A stretch of DNA of 64,000 bases from an uncultured Jannaschia sp. (GTDB lineage Bacteria > Pseudomonadota > Alphaproteobacteria > Rhodobacterales > Rhodobacteraceae): NCBI RefSeq assembly GCF_947503795.1, contig NZ_CANNEZ010000002.1, forward strand, positions 434,001 through 498,000, given 5' to 3'. Under the pieces are notes generated by a model. It ran no database searches. It saw only the letters and a program-made list of their open reading frames with translations, and was not told the origin of the DNA. Every line of letters starts with the position of its first letter. The stretch's first letter is position 1. Position numbers and translations under genes: made by a program. Below, one piece after another: positions 6,331 to 14,636 of the stretch.

Positions 6331-6495
6331 CAGCCGCCGTGTGGGGACGCAATCCCGCCACGAACGACCCGCCGAGGCGCGACAATGCGCGGCCCGGCGG
6401 CCCCAATGTTTCCCCAACCTTTCCCCGGTTTCGCACGACCCGCGCCACGCCAGCCGCGCAGCCTTCTCCGCGACCCCACCGCGAAGGAGAGGATC

Positions 6496-6672
6496 ATGCG
6501 CCATATCTATACCGCCCGGCCCCGCCGCCGCCTGCTGGACCGTCTCGCCCTCTGGTCGGCCGTCATTCTCGGCACGACCGTCACCGTCGACCTCCTGGTC
6601 TACAAGGACATCGCCGGGTTCGACCGCGGCAGCATCGACAACGTCGTGCAGACCTCCGCCGCCGCCGAGTGA
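6496..6672 (+). CDS. Small single-pass membrane protein, 58 residues
   Basis: ATG preceded by a good ribosome site (AAGGAGAGG). The basic N-terminus (RPRRRLLDR) is followed by one membrane helix at about residues 17-36 (ALWSAVILGTTVTVDLLV) and a short acidic tail, which suggests an inner-membrane protein with its N-terminus inside. No family recognised. It lies 165 bases after the previous small gene and upstream of ffh. Confidence 0.55.
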   Translation: MRHIYTARPRRRLLDRLALWSAVILGTTVTVDLLVYKDIAGFDRGSIDNVVQTSAAAE

Positions 6673-6687
6673 CGCCGCCCCCGCGGC

Positions 6688-6716
6688 TTGACAGCCGCGC
6701 GCCGCGCGCGTAGCCC
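6688..6716 (+). promoter_or_regulatory. Candidate promoter for ffh
   Basis: TTGACA (6688-6693), a perfect -35 box, is followed after 17 bases by TAGCCC (6711-6716), a weak -10 box. It lies 149 bases before the ffh start in a 192-base gap with no gene. A strong -35 with a loose -10 is common in GC-rich alphaproteobacteria. The transcription start is not proven. Confidence 0.38.
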
Positions 6717-6864
6717 GCGCCCCACATCCGGATGCTCCATGCTTCCGGTCCCGGCACCACGTTCGGGATCGCCCTCCGTCAGCGCGTCGCGCCCACGGGG
6801 GCGTTTGTGCATTCGCCTGCGCGCTCCCACATCGGGATCACGCAACATGGGAAAGGGACGCGAG

Positions 6865-8358
6865 ATGTTCGAGAGCCTGTCAGACCGCCTGGGCGGCGTC
6901 TTCGACCGCCTGACGAAGCAGGGCGCCCTTTCCGAGGACGACGTCCGCACCGCGATGCGCGAGGTTCGCGTGGCCCTGCTGGAGGCAGATGTCTCGCTCT
7001 CGGTGGCCCGCGACTTCGTCAAGCGCGTCACCCAGAAGGCCACCGGCGCCGCCGTCACCAAGTCGATCACGCCGGGCCAGCAGGTCATCAAGATCGTCCA
7101 TGACGAGCTGCGCGCCGTCCTCGCGGGCGACGAGGGCATCCCGCCTCTCAAGATCGACAACCCGCCCGCGCCGATCCTGATGGTCGGCCTTCAGGGCTCG
7201 GGCAAGACGACGACGACGGGCAAGCTGGCCAAGCGCCTGAAGGATCGCGAGGGCAAGCGGGTGCTGATGGCCTCGCTCGACGTGAACCGCCCTGCCGCGA
7301 TGGAACAGCTCCAGATCCTCGGCGCGCAGATCGGGGTCGACACGCTGCCGATCGTTGCGGGGCAGAGCCCCGTCGACATTGCCAAGCGCGCCAAGACGCA
7401 GGCCTCGCTCGGCGGCTACGACGTCTACATGCTCGATACCGCGGGCCGATTGCAGATCGACCAGGTGCTGATGGACGAGGTGGCGCAGGTCCATGCCGCC
7501 GTCTCCCCGCGCGAGACGCTGCTGGTGGTCGACGGCCTGACCGGCCAGGTCGCCGTCGAAGTGGCCGAGGAATTCGACGCCAAGGTCGGCGTGACCGGCG
7601 TCGTGCTGACGCGGATGGATGGCGACGGGCGCGGCGGCGCCGCCCTGTCCATGCGCGCCGTGACCGGCAAGCCGATCCGCTTCGTCGGCCTGGGCGAGAA
7701 GATGGACGCGCTCGAGACCTTCGAGCCCGACCGCATCGCGGGCCGCATCCTCGGGATGGGCGACATCGTCGCGCTGGTCGAGAAGGCCCAGGAGGTCGCG
7801 GACGTCGAGGCCCAGGAGCGCATGATGAAGCGCTTCCAGAAGGGTCTGTTCAACATGAACGACCTGAAGGGTCAGCTGATCCAGATGCAGAAGATGGGCG
7901 GCATGGAAGGCCTGATGGGCATGATGCCGGGCATGGGCAAGATGGCCAAGCAGATGGACAAGGCCGGGCTCGACGACAGCATCCTCAAGCGCCAGATGGC
8001 GCTGATCGATTCCATGACCAAGAAGGAGCGCGCCAACCCCGCCCTCCTGCAGGCCAGCCGCAAGAAGCGGATCGCCAAGGGTGCGGGCCTCGAGGTCAGC
8101 GAACTGAACCAGCTGCTCAAGATGCACCGCCAGATGGCGGACATGATGAAGAAGATGGGCAAGGGCGGCATGCTCAAGAAGGCCATGGGCATGATGACCG
8201 GCAAGGGCGGCGGCATGCCCGATCCCAGTCAGATGGACCCCGCCGCGCTCGAGGCTGCATCCAAGCAGCTCGGCCAGATGGGCGGCATGGGCCGGATGCC
8301 CGGCATGCCCGGCGGCGTGACGCTGCCCGCGGGCCTCGGGGGCATGAAGAAGAAGTGA
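6865..8358 (+). CDS. ffh: Signal recognition particle GTPase Ffh (SRP54)
   Basis: 497 residues from the ATG giving MFESLSDRLGGVFDRL, the usual Ffh start; an in-frame ATG six codons upstream is possible. NG domain: P-loop GLQGSGKT (108-115), DTAGR from Asp191, and TRMDGDGRGG. M domain: from about residue 325, with clusters of Met (GMEGLMGMMPGMGKM) that line the signal-peptide groove and bind 4.5S RNA. It targets membrane proteins cotranslationally to FtsY and SecYEG. It overlaps the next gene by 4 bases (GTGA) and leads the acetyltransferase/ribosomal cluster. Confidence 0.97.
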   Translation: MFESLSDRLGGVFDRLTKQGALSEDDVRTAMREVRVALLEADVSLSVARDFVKRVTQKATGAAVTKSITPGQQVIKIVHDELRAVLAGDEGIPPLKIDNPPAPILMVGLQGSGKTTTTGKLAKRLKDREGKRVLMASLDVNRPAAMEQLQILGAQIGVDTLPIVAGQSPVDIAKRAKTQASLGGYDVYMLDTAGRLQIDQVLMDEVAQVHAAVSPRETLLVVDGLTGQVAVEVAEEFDAKVGVTGVVLTRMDGDGRGGAALSMRAVTGKPIRFVGLGEKMDALETFEPDRIAGRILGMGDIVALVEKAQEVADVEAQERMMKRFQKGLFNMNDLKGQLIQMQKMGGMEGLMGMMPGMGKMAKQMDKAGLDDSILKRQMALIDSMTKKERANPALLQASRKKRIAKGAGLEVSELNQLLKMHRQMADMMKKMGKGGMLKKAMGMMTGKGGGMPDPSQMDPAALEAASKQLGQMGGMGRMPGMPGGVTLPAGLGGMKKK

Positions 8359-8894
8359 CCGGTCCCGCCTTCCACGACCTGAACGCCATCGCCCCGCTCG
8401 AGACCGAGCGGCTGGAGTTGCGCGTGCCCGTGGAAGCCGACTGGCCCGCCCATCTCGCCTTCGGCCTGTCGGACCGGATGCGCTTCACCGGCGGCCCGAC
8501 GGATCGCTGGGGCGCGTGGCGCTCGTTCACGTCGATGCTCGGCCATTGGTTGCTGCGCGGCTATGGCTTCTGGCAGGTGCTGGAAAAACGAACCGGCACG
8601 CGCGTCGGCAAGGTCGGCGTGCTCTTCCACGATAGCTGGCCCGAGCCGGAGCTGGCATGGCACCTCTATGATGGCGCCACGGGGAAGGGCTACGCGACCG
8701 AAGCCGCCCGTGCCGCACGGGCAGATGCGTGGAACCGGCTGGGCCTCGGCCCGCTGATGAGCCCGATCGACCCCGAGAACCACGCCTCGCGTGCCGTGGC
8801 CGAGCGGCTGGGCGCGCGGCTGGAGGGCACCGATGCCCTTCTCGGAGAGACGGCCGAGATCTGGCGCCATCCCGCCCCGGAGGCCGCCGCATGA
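8355..8894 (+). CDS. GNAT acetyltransferase, RimJ/RimL-like (copy 1 of 5)
   Basis: 179 residues, GTG start overlapping the ffh stop by 4 bases. It has the Acetyltransf_3 layout: N-terminal LETERLELRVP, acetyl-CoA loop region KGYATEAARAARADAW, and a C-terminal region with NHASRAVAERLGARLEG. It shares the motif GHWLLRGYGFW with four paralogues that follow. The family acetylates protein N-termini, amino acids or small amines; the substrate here is unknown. Position directly behind ffh and ahead of ribosomal genes makes a ribosome- or nascent-chain-linked substrate a reasonable guess only. Confidence 0.85.
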   Translation: MTGPAFHDLNAIAPLETERLELRVPVEADWPAHLAFGLSDRMRFTGGPTDRWGAWRSFTSMLGHWLLRGYGFWQVLEKRTGTRVGKVGVLFHDSWPEPELAWHLYDGATGKGYATEAARAARADAWNRLGLGPLMSPIDPENHASRAVAERLGARLEGTDALLGETAEIWRHPAPEAAA

Positions 8895-9223
8895 TCACCT
8901 GCACCGTCCGCTACGAGCTCGACCCCGATCAGCTCGAGGCCTTCGAGGCCTATGCGAAGTTCTGGCTCCACAAGATCCCCGAGATGGGCGGCACCCATCA
9001 CGGCTACCACATGCCGTTCGAGGGTCCGAACGACATCGCCTATTGCCACTTCTCTTTCCCGTCGCTGGCGGCCTACGAGGATTACCGCGACCGGATGCGC
9101 GCCGATCCCGAATGCCAGCGCGCCTATGCCCATGCGCAGGCGACGAGATGCATCCGCCGCTACGACCGCAGCTTCACGCGCCCCCTGATGGACGGCGCCT
9201 CGGCCGACGAGCTGGGGCTGTGA
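8891..9223 (+). CDS. NIPSNAP-family protein
   Basis: 110 residues, ATG overlapping the previous stop by 4 bases. The pattern CTVRYELDPDQLEAFEAYAKFW, then HHGYHMPFEGPNDIAYCHFSFPSLAAYEDYRDRM, matches the dimeric alpha/beta-barrel NIPSNAP fold. Bacterial members are small cytosolic proteins of uncertain function, sometimes resembling monooxygenases or ligand-binding barrels. It sits between acetyltransferase copies 1 and 2 and is coupled to both. No catalytic residues can be named. Confidence 0.78.
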   Translation: MITCTVRYELDPDQLEAFEAYAKFWLHKIPEMGGTHHGYHMPFEGPNDIAYCHFSFPSLAAYEDYRDRMRADPECQRAYAHAQATRCIRRYDRSFTRPLMDGASADELGL

Positions 9224-9750
9224 CCGACACCGTGCTGCATATCCCGACGCTCGTGACCGAGCGCCTGACCCTCCGTGCGCCGCGCGCGGCGGATATGGAC
9301 GCCTATGCCGCCTTTCGCGCCAGCGACCAGATGCGCCATCTCGACGGCCCCGCCAGCCGCGCGGCGGCGTGGGAGCATCTTGCCGGGGTCGCGGGCCAGT
9401 GGCTCCTTCGCGGCTACGGGCGCTGGATCGTGACGATGACCGGCGACGACGCGCCGCTGGGCGTGGTCGGCATCTACCACCCCGAGGACTGGCCAGAACC
9501 CGAGATCGGGTGGTCCGTGACCGCCGCCGCTGAAGGCCGGGGCATCGCGCGCGAAGCGGCGCTGGCGACCCGCGAGTATGCCTACCGCGTGCTGGGCTGG
9601 ACCACGATCGCGAGCTTCATCGCCGCCGGGAACACCCGGTCCGAGGCCTTGGCGCAGCGCCTCGACTGCACCCCGGACGGCGTGTTCCCGCATGCGGAAT
9701 ACGGCGACATGACCATCTGGCGGCATCCCGCCCCTGAGGTCGCGGCATGA
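9220..9750 (+). CDS. GNAT acetyltransferase, RimJ/RimL-like (copy 2 of 5)
   Basis: 176 residues, GTG start overlapping the NIPSNAP stop (GTGA). The N-terminus TERLTLRAPRAADMDAY and the core GQWLLRGYGRW, WPEPEIGW and EGRGIAREAALATREY follow the same plan as its neighbours, with an Asn-containing C-terminal strand (GNTRSEALAQRL). Cytosolic acetyl-CoA-dependent N-acetyltransferase by family; substrate unknown. Clearly a tandem duplicate within this cassette. Confidence 0.84.
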   Translation: MTDTVLHIPTLVTERLTLRAPRAADMDAYAAFRASDQMRHLDGPASRAAAWEHLAGVAGQWLLRGYGRWIVTMTGDDAPLGVVGIYHPEDWPEPEIGWSVTAAAEGRGIAREAALATREYAYRVLGWTTIASFIAAGNTRSEALAQRLDCTPDGVFPHAEYGDMTIWRHPAPEVAA

Positions 9751-10313
9751 TCGCGCCCGTCACCATACCCGTCGTCCCTGCCGCCGCGCGCACGGCGGCG
9801 GCGCTGGAGGCTGTCGTGCCCGTCCTGCGCACGAGCCGCACGGTGCTGCGCGCGCCGCGGCTGGGCGATTACGACGCGCTTCATTCGATCACCGGCAGCG
9901 CGCGCGGCGTCTTCGAGGGCGGTCCCTCGACCGAGGTCGAGAGCTGGGCCGATTTCTGCGGCATGACCGCGACCTGGCTGCTGCGCGGGCACGGGATGTG
10001 GACGGTCGAGACCCGCGCGGGCGCGGTTGCGGGCTTCGTCCTCATCGGGACCGAGCCGGGCGATGCCGAGCACGAGCTGGGCTGGCTGATGACCGATGCG
10101 TTCGAGGGCCGCGGCCTTGCGACCGAAGCCGCCCTTGCCGCGCGCGATCATGCCTGGGGCGCGCTTCGCCTGCCCTCGCTCGTCAGCTACATCGCGCCGG
10201 GCAACACCCGCTCCGAAGCCGTCGCGCGCCGCCTCGGGGCCGCGCCCGACGGCACGATGCTGGACGGTCAGATCAATGTCTGGCGCCACCCCCGGCCCGA
10301 GGGTGCGGCATGA
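9747..10313 (+). CDS. GNAT acetyltransferase, RimJ/RimL-like (copy 3 of 5)
   Basis: 188 residues, ATG overlapping the previous stop. It has a longer N-terminus (about 20 extra residues, Ala/Val rich) before LRTSRTVLRAPRLGDYDAL. The shared core reads ATWLLRGHGMW, HELGWLMTDAFEGRGLATEAALAARDHAW and PGNTRSEAVARRLGA. It lacks the otherwise conserved PExELGW proline pattern, so the binding pocket may differ from copies 1 and 2. Substrate unknown. Confidence 0.84.
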   Translation: MIAPVTIPVVPAAARTAAALEAVVPVLRTSRTVLRAPRLGDYDALHSITGSARGVFEGGPSTEVESWADFCGMTATWLLRGHGMWTVETRAGAVAGFVLIGTEPGDAEHELGWLMTDAFEGRGLATEAALAARDHAWGALRLPSLVSYIAPGNTRSEAVARRLGAAPDGTMLDGQINVWRHPRPEGAA

Positions 10314-10816
10314 TCCCGACGCTCTCGACCGAGCGCCTGACGCTGCGCGCGCCCGAGCTGGGCGACCACCCGGCCTGTGCCGCGTTCTATGCGACCGAGC
10401 GGTCGCATATCGTCGGCGGCCCGCTCGACGAGGTCGGCGCGTGGAAGATCCTGACGAACGATGTGGGCCATTGGCATCTGCGCGGCTACGGCTGGTGGGC
10501 GATCGACGCATCGAAGGATGGCGGCGACGCCTGCGTCGGATCCTGCGGCTTCCACCTGCCCGCCGGGCGCCCCGACGTGGAACTGGGCTGGTCGCTCTAT
10601 TCGGGCACCGGGCGGGGCTACGCCACCGAGGCCGCGCGGGCCGCACTCGACTGGGCCCGTCGGACCGGACATGCCGCCCGTTGGGGCCGCATCGTCAGCC
10701 ATATCGACCGGGACAACACGGCGTCGCAGCGCGTCGCCACCCGCCTCGGCGCCATCGATACGGGCGAACCCGCGGCCCACGACACGGCCTGCACGATCTG
10801 GGAGCACGCGACATGA
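10310..10816 (+). CDS. GNAT acetyltransferase, RimJ/RimL-like (copy 4 of 5)
   Basis: 168 residues, the shortest copy, ATG overlapping the previous stop. Motifs: STERLTLRAPELGDHPA, GHWHLRGYGWW, VELGWSLYSGTGRGYATEAARAALDWA and DRDNTASQRVATRLGA. Two Cys residues (ACVGSC) precede the central strand. Same family and operon as its neighbours. An upstream extension of the frame exists, but only the coupled ATG gives the family N-terminus. Confidence 0.84.
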   Translation: MIPTLSTERLTLRAPELGDHPACAAFYATERSHIVGGPLDEVGAWKILTNDVGHWHLRGYGWWAIDASKDGGDACVGSCGFHLPAGRPDVELGWSLYSGTGRGYATEAARAALDWARRTGHAARWGRIVSHIDRDNTASQRVATRLGAIDTGEPAAHDTACTIWEHAT

Positions 10817-11412
10817 ACGCCGCCATCCCCGTGCTGACCACCCGTCGCCTCGAACTCCGCGCGCCCGAGCCGCAGGACTACCCCGACTTCAAGGCGACCT
10901 TCTCGTCCTATCGGTCGCGGTTCATGGGCGGCCCGCTCAACCCGTACGAAGCATGGATGCTCTATGCCGCCGAGATCGGCCATTGGCAGATACGCGGCTT
11001 CGGCATGTGGATGATCCACGCGCGGGACGACGACCGCACCCTCGGGATGGCGGGCGGCTGGCAACCCGCCGGCTGGCCCGAGCGCGAACTGGCCTGGATC
11101 ATCTGGCCGCAGGCGTCGGGCAACGGCTTCGCGCTGGAGGCCACGGATGCGGTCCGCCGCCATCTCTACGGCGCGGGCTGGACCGGAGCGGTCAGCTATG
11201 TCGACCCGAAGAACCTCGACTCGATCCGGCTCTGCGAACGGCTGGGCGCGTGGCGCGACGACGACGCGACCACGATCGACGGCAACGATGTCGTCTATCG
11301 CCACCCCGCGTCCGCGGCCCTCGCGGACACGCGCCTCTCCTGGGCCATCGCCCGCGAGATCGAGCATTACGCCGATCCGCGCCTCACCCCCGAGGGGATG
11401 CCCGTTGACTGA
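10813..11412 (+). CDS. GNAT acetyltransferase, RimJ/RimL-like (copy 5 of 5, divergent)
   Basis: 199 residues, ATG overlapping the previous stop. The core is recognisable (TTRRLELRAPEPQDY, GHWQIRGFGMW, ERELAWIIWPQASGNGFALEA), but the acetyl-CoA loop reads SGNGFALEA rather than GxGYATEA, and there is a C-terminal extension of about 25 residues (ALADTRLSWAIAREIEHYAD). This is the most diverged copy and may have changed specificity. It ends 25 bases before the chorismate mutase start. Confidence 0.82.
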   Translation: MNAAIPVLTTRRLELRAPEPQDYPDFKATFSSYRSRFMGGPLNPYEAWMLYAAEIGHWQIRGFGMWMIHARDDDRTLGMAGGWQPAGWPERELAWIIWPQASGNGFALEATDAVRRHLYGAGWTGAVSYVDPKNLDSIRLCERLGAWRDDDATTIDGNDVVYRHPASAALADTRLSWAIAREIEHYADPRLTPEGMPVD

Positions 11413-11437
11413 TCGCCCCACCCCCGAGGAGGCCCCG

Positions 11438-11734
11438 ATGACCGATGCCGCCACCCGCGCCGCCGCCCTTCTGGGCGAGCATCGCGCCTCGATCGACCGC
11501 CTCGACGCGGTCCTCGTCTACACGCTCGCCGAACGCTTCGCCCACACCCAGGCGGTGGGGCGGCTCAAGGCCAAACACGATTTGCCCCCGTCCGACCCGG
11601 ACCGGGAGGCCACCCAGATCGCCAGGCTTGAAGCCATGGCGGTGGAGGCCGGGCTGGATCCCGGCTTCGCCAAGAAATTCCTCGGGTTCATCATCGAGGA
11701 AGTCATCCGACATCATCGGCAACATCAATCCTGA
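11438..11734 (+). CDS. Chorismate mutase, AroQ type
   Basis: 98 residues, close to the size of AroQ domains (about 90), all helical. The pattern IDRLDAVLVYTLAERFAHTQAVGRLKAKHDLPPSDPDRE holds the Arg and Lys positions that bind chorismate in the family. It converts chorismate to prephenate for Phe/Tyr synthesis in the cytosol. ATG chosen because GAGGAGG (11426-11432) lies 5 bases before it; an in-frame TTG at 11405 would overlap the previous gene. It lies 24 bases before rpsP. Confidence 0.88.
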   Translation: MTDAATRAAALLGEHRASIDRLDAVLVYTLAERFAHTQAVGRLKAKHDLPPSDPDREATQIARLEAMAVEAGLDPGFAKKFLGFIIEEVIRHHRQHQS

Positions 11735-11758
11735 TACACTGACCAAAGGACTAAACTT

Positions 11759-12325
11759 ATGGCCATGAAGATCCGACTCGCCCGCGGCGGCTCCAAGAAG
11801 CGCCCGCATTATTCCATCGTCGCCGCCGACAGCCGCATGGCCCGCGACGGCCGCTTCATCGAGAAGCTGGGCACCTACAACCCGCTCCTGCCCAAGGACA
11901 GCGAGGAGCGCGTAAAGATGAACATGGAGCGTGTGCAGTACTGGCTCGGCGAGGGCGCCCAGCCCACCGACCGCGTCGCGCGCTTCCTCGAGGCCGCAGA
12001 CGTGCAGCCCAAGAAGGTCCGCGCCAACATGAAGAAGGCCGAGCCGGGCAAGAAGGCCGTCGAGCGCGCGAAGGAGAAGACGGACAAGGCCGCCGCCGCC
12101 GTCGCAGCCGCCGCCGAGGCCGCCGCCTCGACGGCTGCCGAAGCCGCCGACACCGCGACCGACGCGGCAGCTGACGCCGCCGGGACCGCGACCGATGTGG
12201 CCGCCGCCGCCGCCGGTGCCGTGGCCGGGGCCGCCGCGTCGGCCGTCGAAGCCGTGGTCGATGCCGCGGCCGGTGCCGTCGAGGCCGTAACCGGCAACGA
12301 CGACGACAAGAAGACCGAAGAGTGA
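11759..12325 (+). CDS. rpsP: 30S ribosomal protein S16 with a long Ala-rich tail
   Basis: Residues 1-93 are a standard S16 ([50 protein letters not shown]). S16 is usually about 80-120 residues; here a low-complexity tail of about 95 residues follows, basic at first ([19 protein letters not shown]) and then almost only Ala with Thr, Asp, Glu and Val, ending in DDDKKTEE. The tail would be helical or disordered and probably lies outside the 30S body. No frameshift is seen. Cotranscribed with rimM and trmD. Confidence 0.95.
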
Positions 12326-12394
12326 TCTTCGCCGGGGGCGGTTCCGATACCGCCCCCGAGATCCCGCCCCGTCACCAGATCGAAGGCCGCCACG

Positions 12395-12922
12395 ATGAAG
12401 GATCACGTCTGTCTCGGGGCCGTCATGGGCAGCTATGGCGTACGCGGCGAAGTCCGCCTCAAGAGCTTTTGCGCCGACCCCTCGGCAGTCGGCGACTACG
12501 GCCCGCTCGCCGCGGATAACGGCACCGCCTATGCCGTCACCGTGTTGCGCCCGATCAAGGGCGGCTACGCCGTCCGCTTGTCGGGCGTCCCCCACAAGGA
12601 GGCCGCGGACGCCCTCAAGGGCCAGCGTCTCTGGGCGCCGCGCGACGCGCTGCCCGCCCTCCCCGATGACGAGTTCTACCATTCCGACCTGATCGGCCTC
12701 GTGGCCGTCGACACGGGTGGCGCCGATCTCGGACGGGTCCACGCGGTTCACGATCACGGCGCGGGCGACCTGCTGGAGGTTCGGCCCGCCGGGGGCGCGT
12801 CGGTGCTCGTGCCCTTCACCCAGGCGATCGTGCCGACCGTCGACCTCACGGCACGGCGGATCGTCATCGACCCGCCGCCGGGTCTCTTCGACGACGGCGC
12901 GGACGACGCGCCATCCGAATGA
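12395..12922 (+). CDS. rimM: 16S rRNA processing protein RimM
   Basis: 175 residues. An N-terminal RimM barrel ([21 protein letters not shown]) is followed by a PRC-barrel (about residues 90-165, including [14 protein letters not shown] and [13 protein letters not shown]). It binds S19 and helps 30S head maturation. ATG overlaps nothing upstream (69-base gap after rpsP) and the 3' end overlaps trmD by 4 bases (ATGA), the order seen in most bacteria. Confidence 0.96.
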
Positions 12923-13698
12923 CAGATCCCGCCCGCTCCCACGGCTCGAAGTCGATCCGCGCTTCGGCGGCGCCCCGCGACCTGATGGCCCCGGCGCCCC
13001 GCCCGGGCGCTTGGGCTGCGTCGGTCGTCACGCTGTTCCCCGAGGCGTTTCCCGGCGTGCTCGGTCACTCGCTCACGGGCACGGCACTGAAGGACGGGCT
13101 CTGGTCGCTCGACGTGACCGACCTGCGCCGCTTCGGCGAGGGGCGGCACCGCAAGGTCGATGACCGGCCCGCAGGCGGGGGGGCCGGGCTCGTGCTCAGA
13201 CCCGATATCGTCGGCGCGGCGCTCGAGGCGGCGCGAGGGCCGGGACCGATGATCTATCTCAGCCCGAGGGGCCGCCCCTTCGACCAGGCCCGCGCCAGGC
13301 ATCTCGCGGCCGGGCCGGGCGTCACCCTTCTCTGCGGGCGGTTCGAGGGTGTCGATCAGCGGGTGCTGGACGAATACGAGATGGAGGAGGTCAGCCTCGG
13401 CGATTTCGTCCTGACCGGCGGCGAGATCGCGGCTCAGGCGCTGCTCGACGCAACGATCCGCCTTCTGCCCGGCGTCATCGGCAATCAAGCCTCGACCGAA
13501 GAGGAGAGCTTCTCCGACGGTCTTCTCGAACACCCGCACTTCACCAAGCCCGCCGACTGGCAGGGCCGCACGATTCCGGCGGTCCTGACCTCGGGCGATC
13601 ATGCCAAGGTCGCGGCCTGGCGGCGCGACCAGTCCGAGGCCCTGACCCGTACGCGGCGCCCGGGTCTTTGGGCGCGATACCTGGACACCAAACGTTAA
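12919..13698 (+). CDS. trmD: tRNA (guanine-N1-)-methyltransferase TrmD
   Basis: 259 residues. SPOUT/trefoil-knot motifs [10 protein letters not shown] (137-146) and [11 protein letters not shown] (159-169) bind AdoMet; the enzyme makes m1G37 in tRNA and prevents frameshifting. The conserved TrmD start ([11 protein letters not shown]) begins only at about residue 36, so there is an N-terminal extension of about 30 residues, SRAP-rich and probably disordered. I kept the ATG overlapping rimM; an internal ATG at 12985 is the alternative start. Confidence 0.95.
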
Positions 13699-13739
13699 CC
13701 ATCGCGCGCCGCTTCGATGTTCCGAAAATATGCCGGGGT

Positions 13740-13756
13740 CCGGGGCAGCGCCCCGG
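13740..13756 (+). repeat. GC-rich palindrome after trmD
   Basis: CCGGGGC (13740-13746), loop AGC, GCCCCGG (13750-13756). This could weaken read-through from trmD into rplS or stabilise the upstream mRNA. No T tract, so not a classic terminator. Confidence 0.35.
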
Positions 13757-13766
13757 CCCTCTCCAC

Positions 13767-13793
13767 TTGCGCCGCGCCGCCGCGCGATATACG
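13767..13793 (+). promoter_or_regulatory. Candidate promoter for rplS-rpmE
   Basis: TTGCGC (13767-13772) and TATACG (13788-13793) are separated by 15 bases in the 221-base gap before rplS. The -10 is good, the -35 and spacing only fair. A separate promoter for the rplS-rpmE pair fits the palindrome behind trmD. Confidence 0.3.
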
Positions 13794-13854
13794 ACGCCGC
13801 ATCACGTATCGCCCCGGTCCGCCGGGACGCTCTGCGTGGCCGCAAAGAACAGCC

Positions 13855-13898
13855 GTCCGGACCCAACCGGACAGGACATCATCCGGGGGCAAACCCCG
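13855..13898 (+). promoter_or_regulatory. Two-hairpin leader before rplS
   Basis: Hairpin 1: GTCCGG (13855-13860)/CCGGAC (13867-13872). Hairpin 2: CGGGG (13884-13888)/CCCCG (13894-13898). They sit 12-65 bases before the strong ribosome site AGGAGGG of rplS. This is a possible protein-binding leader (L19 mRNAs are autoregulated in some bacteria), but the link is inferred from position only. Confidence 0.3.
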
Positions 13899-13919
13899 TC
13901 GCAACCATAGGAGGGTCCG

Positions 13920-14306
13920 ATGGACCTGATCGCTCAGATCGAGGCGGAGCATATCGCCGCTCTCGACAAGACCATTCCCGATTTCAAGGCCGGCGACACC
14001 ATTCGCGTCGGCTTCAAGGTGACCGAGGGCACGCGCACGCGGGTCCAGAACTACGAAGGCGTCTGCATCAGCCGCAAGAACGGCTCGGGCATCGCCGGTG
14101 CGTTCACCGTCCGCAAGATCAGCTTCGGCGAAGGCGTCGAGCGGGTCTTCCCGCTGCATTCCACGAATATCGATTCGATCGAGGTCGTGCGCCGGGGCCG
14201 CGTTCGCCGCTCCAAGCTCTATTACCTGCGCTCGCGCCGCGGCAAGTCGGCCCGGATCGCCGAACAGACCAACTACCGTGCCCCGAAGGCCAAGGAGACC
14301 GTGTGA
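13920..14306 (+). CDS. rplS: 50S ribosomal protein L19
   Basis: 128 residues with the family pattern [61 protein letters not shown]19 lies at the 30S-50S interface. The ATG follows AGGAGGG closely. It is separated from trmD by a 221-base leader with hairpins and overlaps the rpmE start by one base (TGATG). Confidence 0.97.
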
Positions 14307-14527
14307 TGAAAAAGGACCTGCACCCCGAATACCACACGATCAACGTCAAGCTGGTCGACGGCACCGTGGTCGAGATGCGCTCGACCTGGGGCGAAGAGGG
14401 CTCGCAGCTCTCTCTCGATATCGACCCCTCGGTGCACCCGGCCTGGACCGGCGGTACCTCGCGGCTGATGGACACCGGCGGCCGCGTGTCGAAGTTCAAG
14501 AACAAGTATGCCGGCCTCGGCTTCTGA
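14306..14527 (+). CDS. rpmE: 50S ribosomal protein L31, zinc-free type
   Basis: 73 residues beginning [19 protein letters not shown] and ending [14 protein letters not shown], typical L31. There is no Cys at all, so the zinc-binding CxxC pair of classic L31 is missing (C-minus type), which would not depend on zinc supply. The start overlaps the rplS stop (TGATG), so the two are translationally coupled. A strong terminator follows. Confidence 0.95.
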
Positions 14528-14547
14528 GCCCGCCGCATATCTCGATG

Positions 14548-14580
14548 CGAACGCCGCCCCCCGGGGCGGCGTTCGTCGTT
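14548..14580 (+). terminator. Strong terminator of the ribosomal operon
   Basis: A 13-base perfect stem, CGAACGCCGCCCC (14548-14560) with GGGGCGGCGTTCG (14563-14575), is followed by TCGTT. It begins 20 bases after the rpmE stop and is the most stable hairpin in this part of the window. Confidence 0.75.
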
Positions 14581-14636
14581 TCGGGCCCCACCGGCCGCGA
14601 TCCGACGGAAATAAGGGTGAACGCGCGCGCGGACGC

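Follow-up and report, generated by a model that had tools for sequence, protein, structure and literature searches.

The window analysed here is a stretch of 64,000 nucleotides from an uncultured Jannaschia sp. of the Rhodobacteraceae (contig NZ_CANNEZ010000002.1, positions 434,001 to 498,000). Between ffh, the gene for the signal recognition particle protein, and the gene for a monofunctional chorismate mutase, it carries five paralogous acetyltransferase genes of the GNAT family, GN1 to GN5. We tentatively read this locus, at somewhat less than even chances, as a variable array of old, catalytically competent GNATs of the 2FSR/PA3944 group that is coupled to ffh and likely acts on small or peptide-like amines. 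A limited literature search at the level of titles and abstracts found no report on a GNAT array at the ffh locus.

Gene content and junctions of the array

Six genes, five for GNATs and one for a NIPSNAP-family protein, lie between ffh and the chorismate mutase gene, all in the same direction. The upstream neighbour, ffh (6865..8358, + strand, 497 aa), scored 566.5 bits with TIGR00959, for which the cut-off is 473.2. It is followed on the + strand by GN1 (8355..8894, 179 aa; 99 bits with PF13302), the NIPSNAP-family gene (8891..9223, 110 aa; 60.3 bits with PF07978), GN2 (9220..9750, 176 aa; 100 bits), GN3 (9747..10313, 188 aa; 82.9 bits), GN4 (10310..10816, 168 aa; 98.7 bits) and GN5 (10813..11412, 199 aa; 82.4 bits). 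The PF13302 (Acetyltransf_3) scores of the five GNATs thus range from 82.4 to 100 bits, far above the gathering score of 25.4. The chorismate mutase gene (11438..11734, + strand, 98 aa; NF006691, 141.8 bits against 120; TIGR01795, 110.8 against 107.55) forms the downstream border; the closest named relatives of its product are from Jannaschia species.

An initial annotation of this DNA had described five tandem paralogous GNATs of 168-199 aa plus NIPSNAP within 8355-11412. All of these genes were recovered as described; their contiguity was not, as the NIPSNAP gene lies between copies 1 and 2. The shared core WxxRGxGxW that had been proposed is indeed present, with W65, R68, G69, G71 and W73 identical in all five proteins. 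The alignment of GN1 to GN5 contains 31 invariant columns, and GN2-GN5 are 38-45% identical to GN1.

The predicted 4-base start/stop overlaps, including those with ffh and NIPSNAP, were found at all six junctions from ffh to GN5. The overlap reads GTGA at the ffh stop and between NIPSNAP and GN2, and ATGA between GN1 and NIPSNAP, GN2 and GN3, GN3 and GN4, and GN4 and GN5. Across the arrays of the family, 183 of 241 internal junctions overlapped by 4 bases and 27 of 241 by 1, with a start picker that favours overlaps of 4 or 1 where such starts exist. Gene tails often carry a Shine-Dalgarno-like GGAG ahead of the next ATGA. In loci that contain both ffh and the chorismate mutase gene, 329 GNATs were on the ffh strand and 0 on the opposite strand. 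Between 6400 and 14600, no terminator-like site was detected on the + strand, and all six such sites were on the - strand, a pattern that is compatible with a single transcript and is no proof of one. No sigma-70-like promoter was found in 6400-14600, a search that is little informative for this bacterial group. From the junctions, we infer that ffh and the array are co-expressed: the array would extend the ffh cistron by translational coupling, through stop/start overlaps that often have a GGAG-like Shine-Dalgarno sequence within the 3' end of the upstream gene.

Copy number and confinement to the ffh locus

We examined the ffh region in five other families and, within the family, in 20 Jannaschia genomes (that of the window and 19 others) and 96 other genera. 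GNATs were counted as open reading frames (ORFs) in the interval from ffh to the chorismate mutase gene, with a profile built from the arrays. The family genomes were picked by descending ffh similarity (96 of 143 other genera with ffh), skipping loci at contig ends, so that the most divergent genera are under-represented. Two loci that end before rpsP (L065, L071) were excluded, which left 94 other genera with an uncut interval.

The 20 Jannaschia genomes contained 1-10 GNATs in this interval: one copy in two genomes, two in four, three in five, four in one, five in four, seven in one, eight in two and ten in one. One of the counts of five is a lower bound, from a locus (L053) that ends before the chorismate mutase gene. 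The 94 other genera contained 0-12: none in four genera, one in 20, two in 27, three in 23, four in eight, five in six, six in two, seven in two, nine in one and 12 in one; one of the two GNATs counted in locus L039 is a 70-aa remnant. Of 80 further loci from named records, with partly overlapping species, 77 include ffh; these had 0-10 GNAT ORFs each, and 7 of them had none.

The order ffh-GNATs-chorismate mutase-rpsP-rimM-trmD, said to be recognisable from Rhodobacterales, was borne out in the family, with at least one GNAT in 90 of the 94 other genera. The same annotation had regarded a fivefold expansion as unusual. Arrays of at least five copies occur in 8 of the 20 Jannaschia genomes and in 12 of the 94 other genera, and five copies are no special expansion for this locus.

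Outside the family, the interval contained no GNAT in any of the 5 loci, and a homologue at E<=1e-25 was detected in 16 of 141 genomes of a class-wide sample; in none of these 16 was it less than 13 kb from ffh. The best homologue lies about 13 and about 20 kb from ffh in two genomes outside the family (G039:C8:216007 and G038:C40:8955), and another has two adjoining homologues far from ffh (G276:C1:1189359-1190394).

Within the 20 Jannaschia genomes, all 81 matches at E<=1e-20 sit at ffh. In 61 family genomes searched at E<=1e-35, 147 of the 150 matches listed (of 152) are within 10 kb of ffh, and three are elsewhere. The unusual feature is thus the locus itself, as this GNAT subfamily is hardly found elsewhere in these genomes. 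Mobile-element collections were each queried with one copy only: GN3 matched 127 records of a plasmid collection (72,556 records), all at less than 60% identity, and GN2 had no match in a phage collection. Possible reasons for the array to stay in the operon are constitutive expression, co-translational action or plain local duplication.

From gene position alone, the initial annotation had suggested nascent chains or proteins of the ribosome as the source of substrates, a possible reading. The array would then consist of protein N-alpha-acetyltransferases with a RimL/RimJ-like function, which would explain its site near ffh and ribosomal genes and fits both the extreme fidelity to this locus and the tight coupling to ffh. 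Nevertheless, four of 94 genera lack any copy and the sets vary within a genus, which is odd for conserved ribosomal substrates. With the kinship described below, this makes such a function unlikely in our view.

Age, selection and gene order

Of the 336 GNATs counted, 332 were aligned and placed in a tree with 28 outsiders; fragments of 70, 90 and 107 aa were dropped, and one GNAT of locus L061 was missing from the gene list. Only 6 of 308 members of multi-copy arrays, and not one of the 81 members from Jannaschia, had their nearest leaf in their own genome, and identity between paralogues within a genome was low (median 40.6%, with 3 of 551 pairs at 60% or more). The array copies are therefore old paralogue lineages that have been kept differentially; recent tandem expansion was rejected on the same grounds. 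Recent import from other genera was also rejected: 67 of the 81 Jannaschia members had their nearest leaf inside the genus, and the other 14 were distant (0.57-1.64). By the counts and the tree together, it is not the case that most Rhodobacterales carry five undiverged copies. Nor are the copies unrelated GNATs, since they are paralogous. In eight orthologue pairs, dN/dS was 0.09-0.30, which indicates purifying selection between orthologues.

Gene order was compared through reciprocal best hits with at least 60% identity. Between genera, 265 of 268 ordered pairs were concordant and 156 of 159 genome pairs fully colinear, as against 102 of 138 ordered pairs and 29 of 58 genome pairs within Jannaschia. 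When the identity threshold was relaxed, so that paralogues were taken for orthologues, discordance also rose outside Jannaschia (at 40%, 1404 concordant and 455 discordant pairs). Thus, array order is steady between genera and scrambled within Jannaschia.

In terms of orthologue groups, the array of the window reads F-NIPSNAP-D-A-B-C. Group F (GN1) was found in the window and in two further Jannaschia genomes, and it opens the array in 3 of 3. Group D (GN2) was present in 6 of 20 Jannaschia genomes, group A (GN3) in 17 of 20 and group B (GN4) in 10 of 20. Jannaschia arrays include both A-B and B-A orders, D occurs before or after A, and the NIPSNAP gene moves. This last gene was present in 13 of 20 Jannaschia arrays but in only 4 of the 96 loci from other genera; its position varies widely.

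Group C, which holds GN5, is the largest orthologue cluster under single linkage at 62% identity or more, with 47 genomes (nine of them Jannaschia). Its members close 44 of the 46 arrays that have at least two copies, including 9 of 9 in Jannaschia, and have a C-terminal extension common to genera (14 of 47 tails inspected). Median identity within Jannaschia was 0.805 for the GN5 group, 0.823 for chorismate mutase and 0.811 for rpsP. GN5 is thus the conserved anchor paralogue on the chorismate mutase side.

Duplication then loss would suffice as the source of the reordering in Jannaschia. Recombination via conserved gene ends, where a C-terminal PExAA recurs, was considered and rejected, as codon identity at identical residues was not raised there (0.52 in the first bin, 0.59 and 0.44 in the last two, and 0.50-0.60 elsewhere; 551 intragenome pairs). 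In the mechanism that we propose, duplication and loss would renew the interior of the array, together with reordering in Jannaschia, and GN5 would remain as the anchor.

A more far-reaching idea would join the coupling to the shuffled order: a lineage-specific, reorderable set of N-acetyltransferases, synthesised in step with the signal recognition particle, might act co-translationally on the N termini of exported or membrane proteins and write a species-specific code of N-terminal acetylation. We consider this very improbable.

Nearest known proteins

The predicted model of GN5 (pLDDT 95.4, pTM 0.91) has a GNAT fold. A search of the PDB with a profile of the five window proteins returned 2FSR first (160.6 bits) and then PA3944 (85.8 bits). 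Structural comparison of the GN5 model, with Z differences below 1 treated as ties, ranked 2FSR (27.0), PA3944 (22.6), 3JUW (20.4), BmNAT (20.2), 2FCK (18.7) and 3FBU (18.4) ahead of RimL (17.7), MccE (16.9) and RimJ (16.3). 2FSR, an acetyltransferase of Agrobacterium tumefaciens C58 described by its structure only, superposes on the model with an rmsd of 1.3 over 163 residues at 32% identity; unlike the array, it is a single solved protein. PA3944, a polymyxin acetyltransferase of Pseudomonas aeruginosa (6EDD, 7KPS), is only 24-26% identical to GN5, and its likeness to the array is one of sequence and structure alone. The bleomycin N-acetyltransferase BmNAT (2ZW4-2ZW7) aligns over 164 residues of the model, but only through residues 6-181 of its 297-residue chain.

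RimJ and RimL had been taken as the nearest kin of the array. These ribosomal-protein N-terminal acetyltransferases share the fold, as does the Vibrio protein 2FCK, titled a putative ribosomal-protein-serine acetyltransferase, but RimL and RimJ rank below 2FSR, PA3944 and BmNAT. Moreover, no model named after RimI, RimJ or RimL was among the NCBIfam matches of the five GNATs at E<=0.001, in a library that presumably contains such models. Judged from sequence and structure, the 2FSR/PA3944 (serine-type) group appears to be the nearest, ahead of RimL and RimJ, which argues against a RimL/RimJ-like function even though RimL carries the equivalent serine, as stated in the published work on PA3944 (PMC8072286).

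The same neighbourhood could instead point to a resistance-like repertoire, encoded in a constitutive operon and directed at antibiotics of competitors, whether peptides or aminoglycosides. Among the structural neighbours, that source associates PA3944 with polymyxins, BmNAT with bleomycin and MccE with processed microcin C; it also indicates that a shared fold or serine does not reveal the substrate (PMC8072286). NCBIfam models for BlmB, TlmB and AAC(2')-IIa gave matches, all weak, at 18.9-39.7 bits against cut-offs of 510-625; those of BlmB and TlmB to GN1-GN3 reached 22.2-39.7 bits, far below the curated cut-off of 625. APH-family genes sit in the rimM-trmD gap of three Jannaschia loci (five Jannaschia gap ORFs were scanned), which would suit such a repertoire, whereas plasmid matches that all fall below 60% identity for GN3, and the lack of a phage match for GN2, are unlike most acquired resistance genes. 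We regard a resistance role as distinctly unlikely. As to a role in anti-phage defence, PADLOC-DB gave one weak partial match, of MkoB to GN4 (17.2 bits, E 5.8e-4), and none for the other five proteins.

Predicted catalysis and substrates

GNATs generally bind acetyl-CoA through a loop with the motif (Q/R)-x-x-G-x-(G/A). Copy 5 had been thought to have lost this loop. Its sequence, Q-A-S-G-N-G-F-A, fits the general motif, and its orthologue group is the most widespread; Q stands at the first loop position in copy 5, and the other four copies have neither Q nor R there. The G-x-G element is kept throughout, with G110 and G112 in all five window copies and each in 326 of 332 members. Glu99, Trp102 and Ser145 of GN1 align with E102, W105 and S148 of PA3944 and are conserved in 332, 304 and 314 of the 332 members, respectively; the equivalent serine is found in all five window copies. 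According to the study of PA3944, S148 is essential, a ping-pong or hybrid mechanism was concluded, and the glutamate is thought to act in substrate recognition (PMC8072286).

Because active sites have been kept and orthologues are under purifying selection, we would say that most array members are working acetyltransferases. Each enzyme would hold acetyl-CoA in the G-x-G loop and transfer the acetyl group to a primary amine, using the serine and glutamate equivalent to S148 and E102. Substrates probably differ among the paralogues. The likeliest substrates would be small or peptide-like amines, since single members come and go between species. One essential housekeeping substrate is disfavoured because of these gains and losses and of the empty loci in 4 of 94 genera. 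Those structural neighbours that have been characterised modify peptide antibiotics, and protein N termini as well.

Several observations weigh against the array as a set of old, competent enzymes with divergent small or peptide-like substrates. The catalytic serine is absent from 18 of 332 members, one of them a copy with an internal stop, and the paralogue-specific residues are not significantly enriched at the acceptor positions of PA3944 (Mann-Whitney p = 0.22; 6 of the top 25 columns fall there, hypergeometric p = 0.04, post hoc). According to PMC8072286, 2FSR and three further close homologues probably have functions other than that of PA3944. The clade that unites 330 of 332 array members with one outsider has a support of 0.0, so that a single origin is not established. 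Identities within groups A and B track those of core genes (Spearman 0.64 and 0.56), and those within C, D and E do so hardly or not at all (0.25, 0.01 and -0.23). Strictly vertical descent is thus not established either; core genes scatter too (rimM, 0.17).

Fusions, remnants and neighbouring genes

Double-GNAT ORFs occur in nine named loci (L236, L238, L245, L255, L256, L259, L267, L270 and L290) and, by our reading, belong to three sequence types, from Tropicimonas/Aliiruegeria, from Tabrizicola and from two metagenome-assembled genomes. In the Tropicimonas/Aliiruegeria fusions, all 6 N-terminal domains have alanine where the catalytic serine would stand (invariant A136), and 5 of the 6 C-terminal domains retain serine. 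The fusions suggest that members of the array may act as pairs. The predicted packing of the two domains was too uncertain (pTM 0.49, six sequences), and the arrangement was not used.

Downstream of the array, the window order continues as chorismate mutase-rpsP-rimM-trmD-rplS, with all genes on the + strand. The rpsP gene (11759..12325) encodes a ribosomal protein bS16 of 188 aa, in which PF00886 covers residues 9-70 and is followed by a long Ala-rich tail. It is followed by rimM (12395..12922; PF01782, PF24986), trmD (12985..13698; PF01746, 167.5 bits), the start of which is unsettled in an ORF open from 12919, and rplS (13920..14306; PF01245, 153.7 bits).

Other intervals of the operon also vary in width, and they bear on whether the array is an evolutionary by-product, in which GNAT genes duplicate and are lost in an insertion-tolerant operon without a strong function, and in which coupling spares the downstream genes. 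The rimM-trmD gap exceeds 800 bases in 42 of the 85 other genera that have the two genes, and the rpsP-rimM and trmD-rplS gaps are also widened in family loci. In four loci (L065, L066, L104 and L136), genes for COQ7, sulphur transport (PF04143, Sulf_transp) or DUF6691 follow ffh and either precede the GNATs or are interspersed with them. Decaying GNAT copies (L039, L052, L136 and G020:C4:297823) include remnants of 70 and 107 aa and internal stops; a third fragment, of 90 aa, is cut by a contig end. A by-product would readily account for these features. It accords poorly with the low dN/dS values, with the retention of active-site residues and with a GN5 group whose conservation is close to that of chorismate mutase and rpsP. 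Furthermore, the array GNATs keep to one strand, unlike the longest ORFs of the other widened gaps, which occur on both. We therefore consider this explanation doubtful.

Ten of the longest gap ORFs were scanned; three are of the APH family (Jannaschia L050, L056 and L057), and one is a nitroreductase (L117).

Implications

Many GNATs of bacteria are enzymes without a known substrate, and this locus shows an entire bacterial family that keeps a changing, strictly local set of them, including one anchor paralogue, in a housekeeping operon. The locus is also a case of overlapping genes that are reshuffled while their overlaps persist. The 0-12 copies found among genomes form a natural series for linking gene content to acetylation, and the question of substrates can be addressed through deletion of one compact locus.

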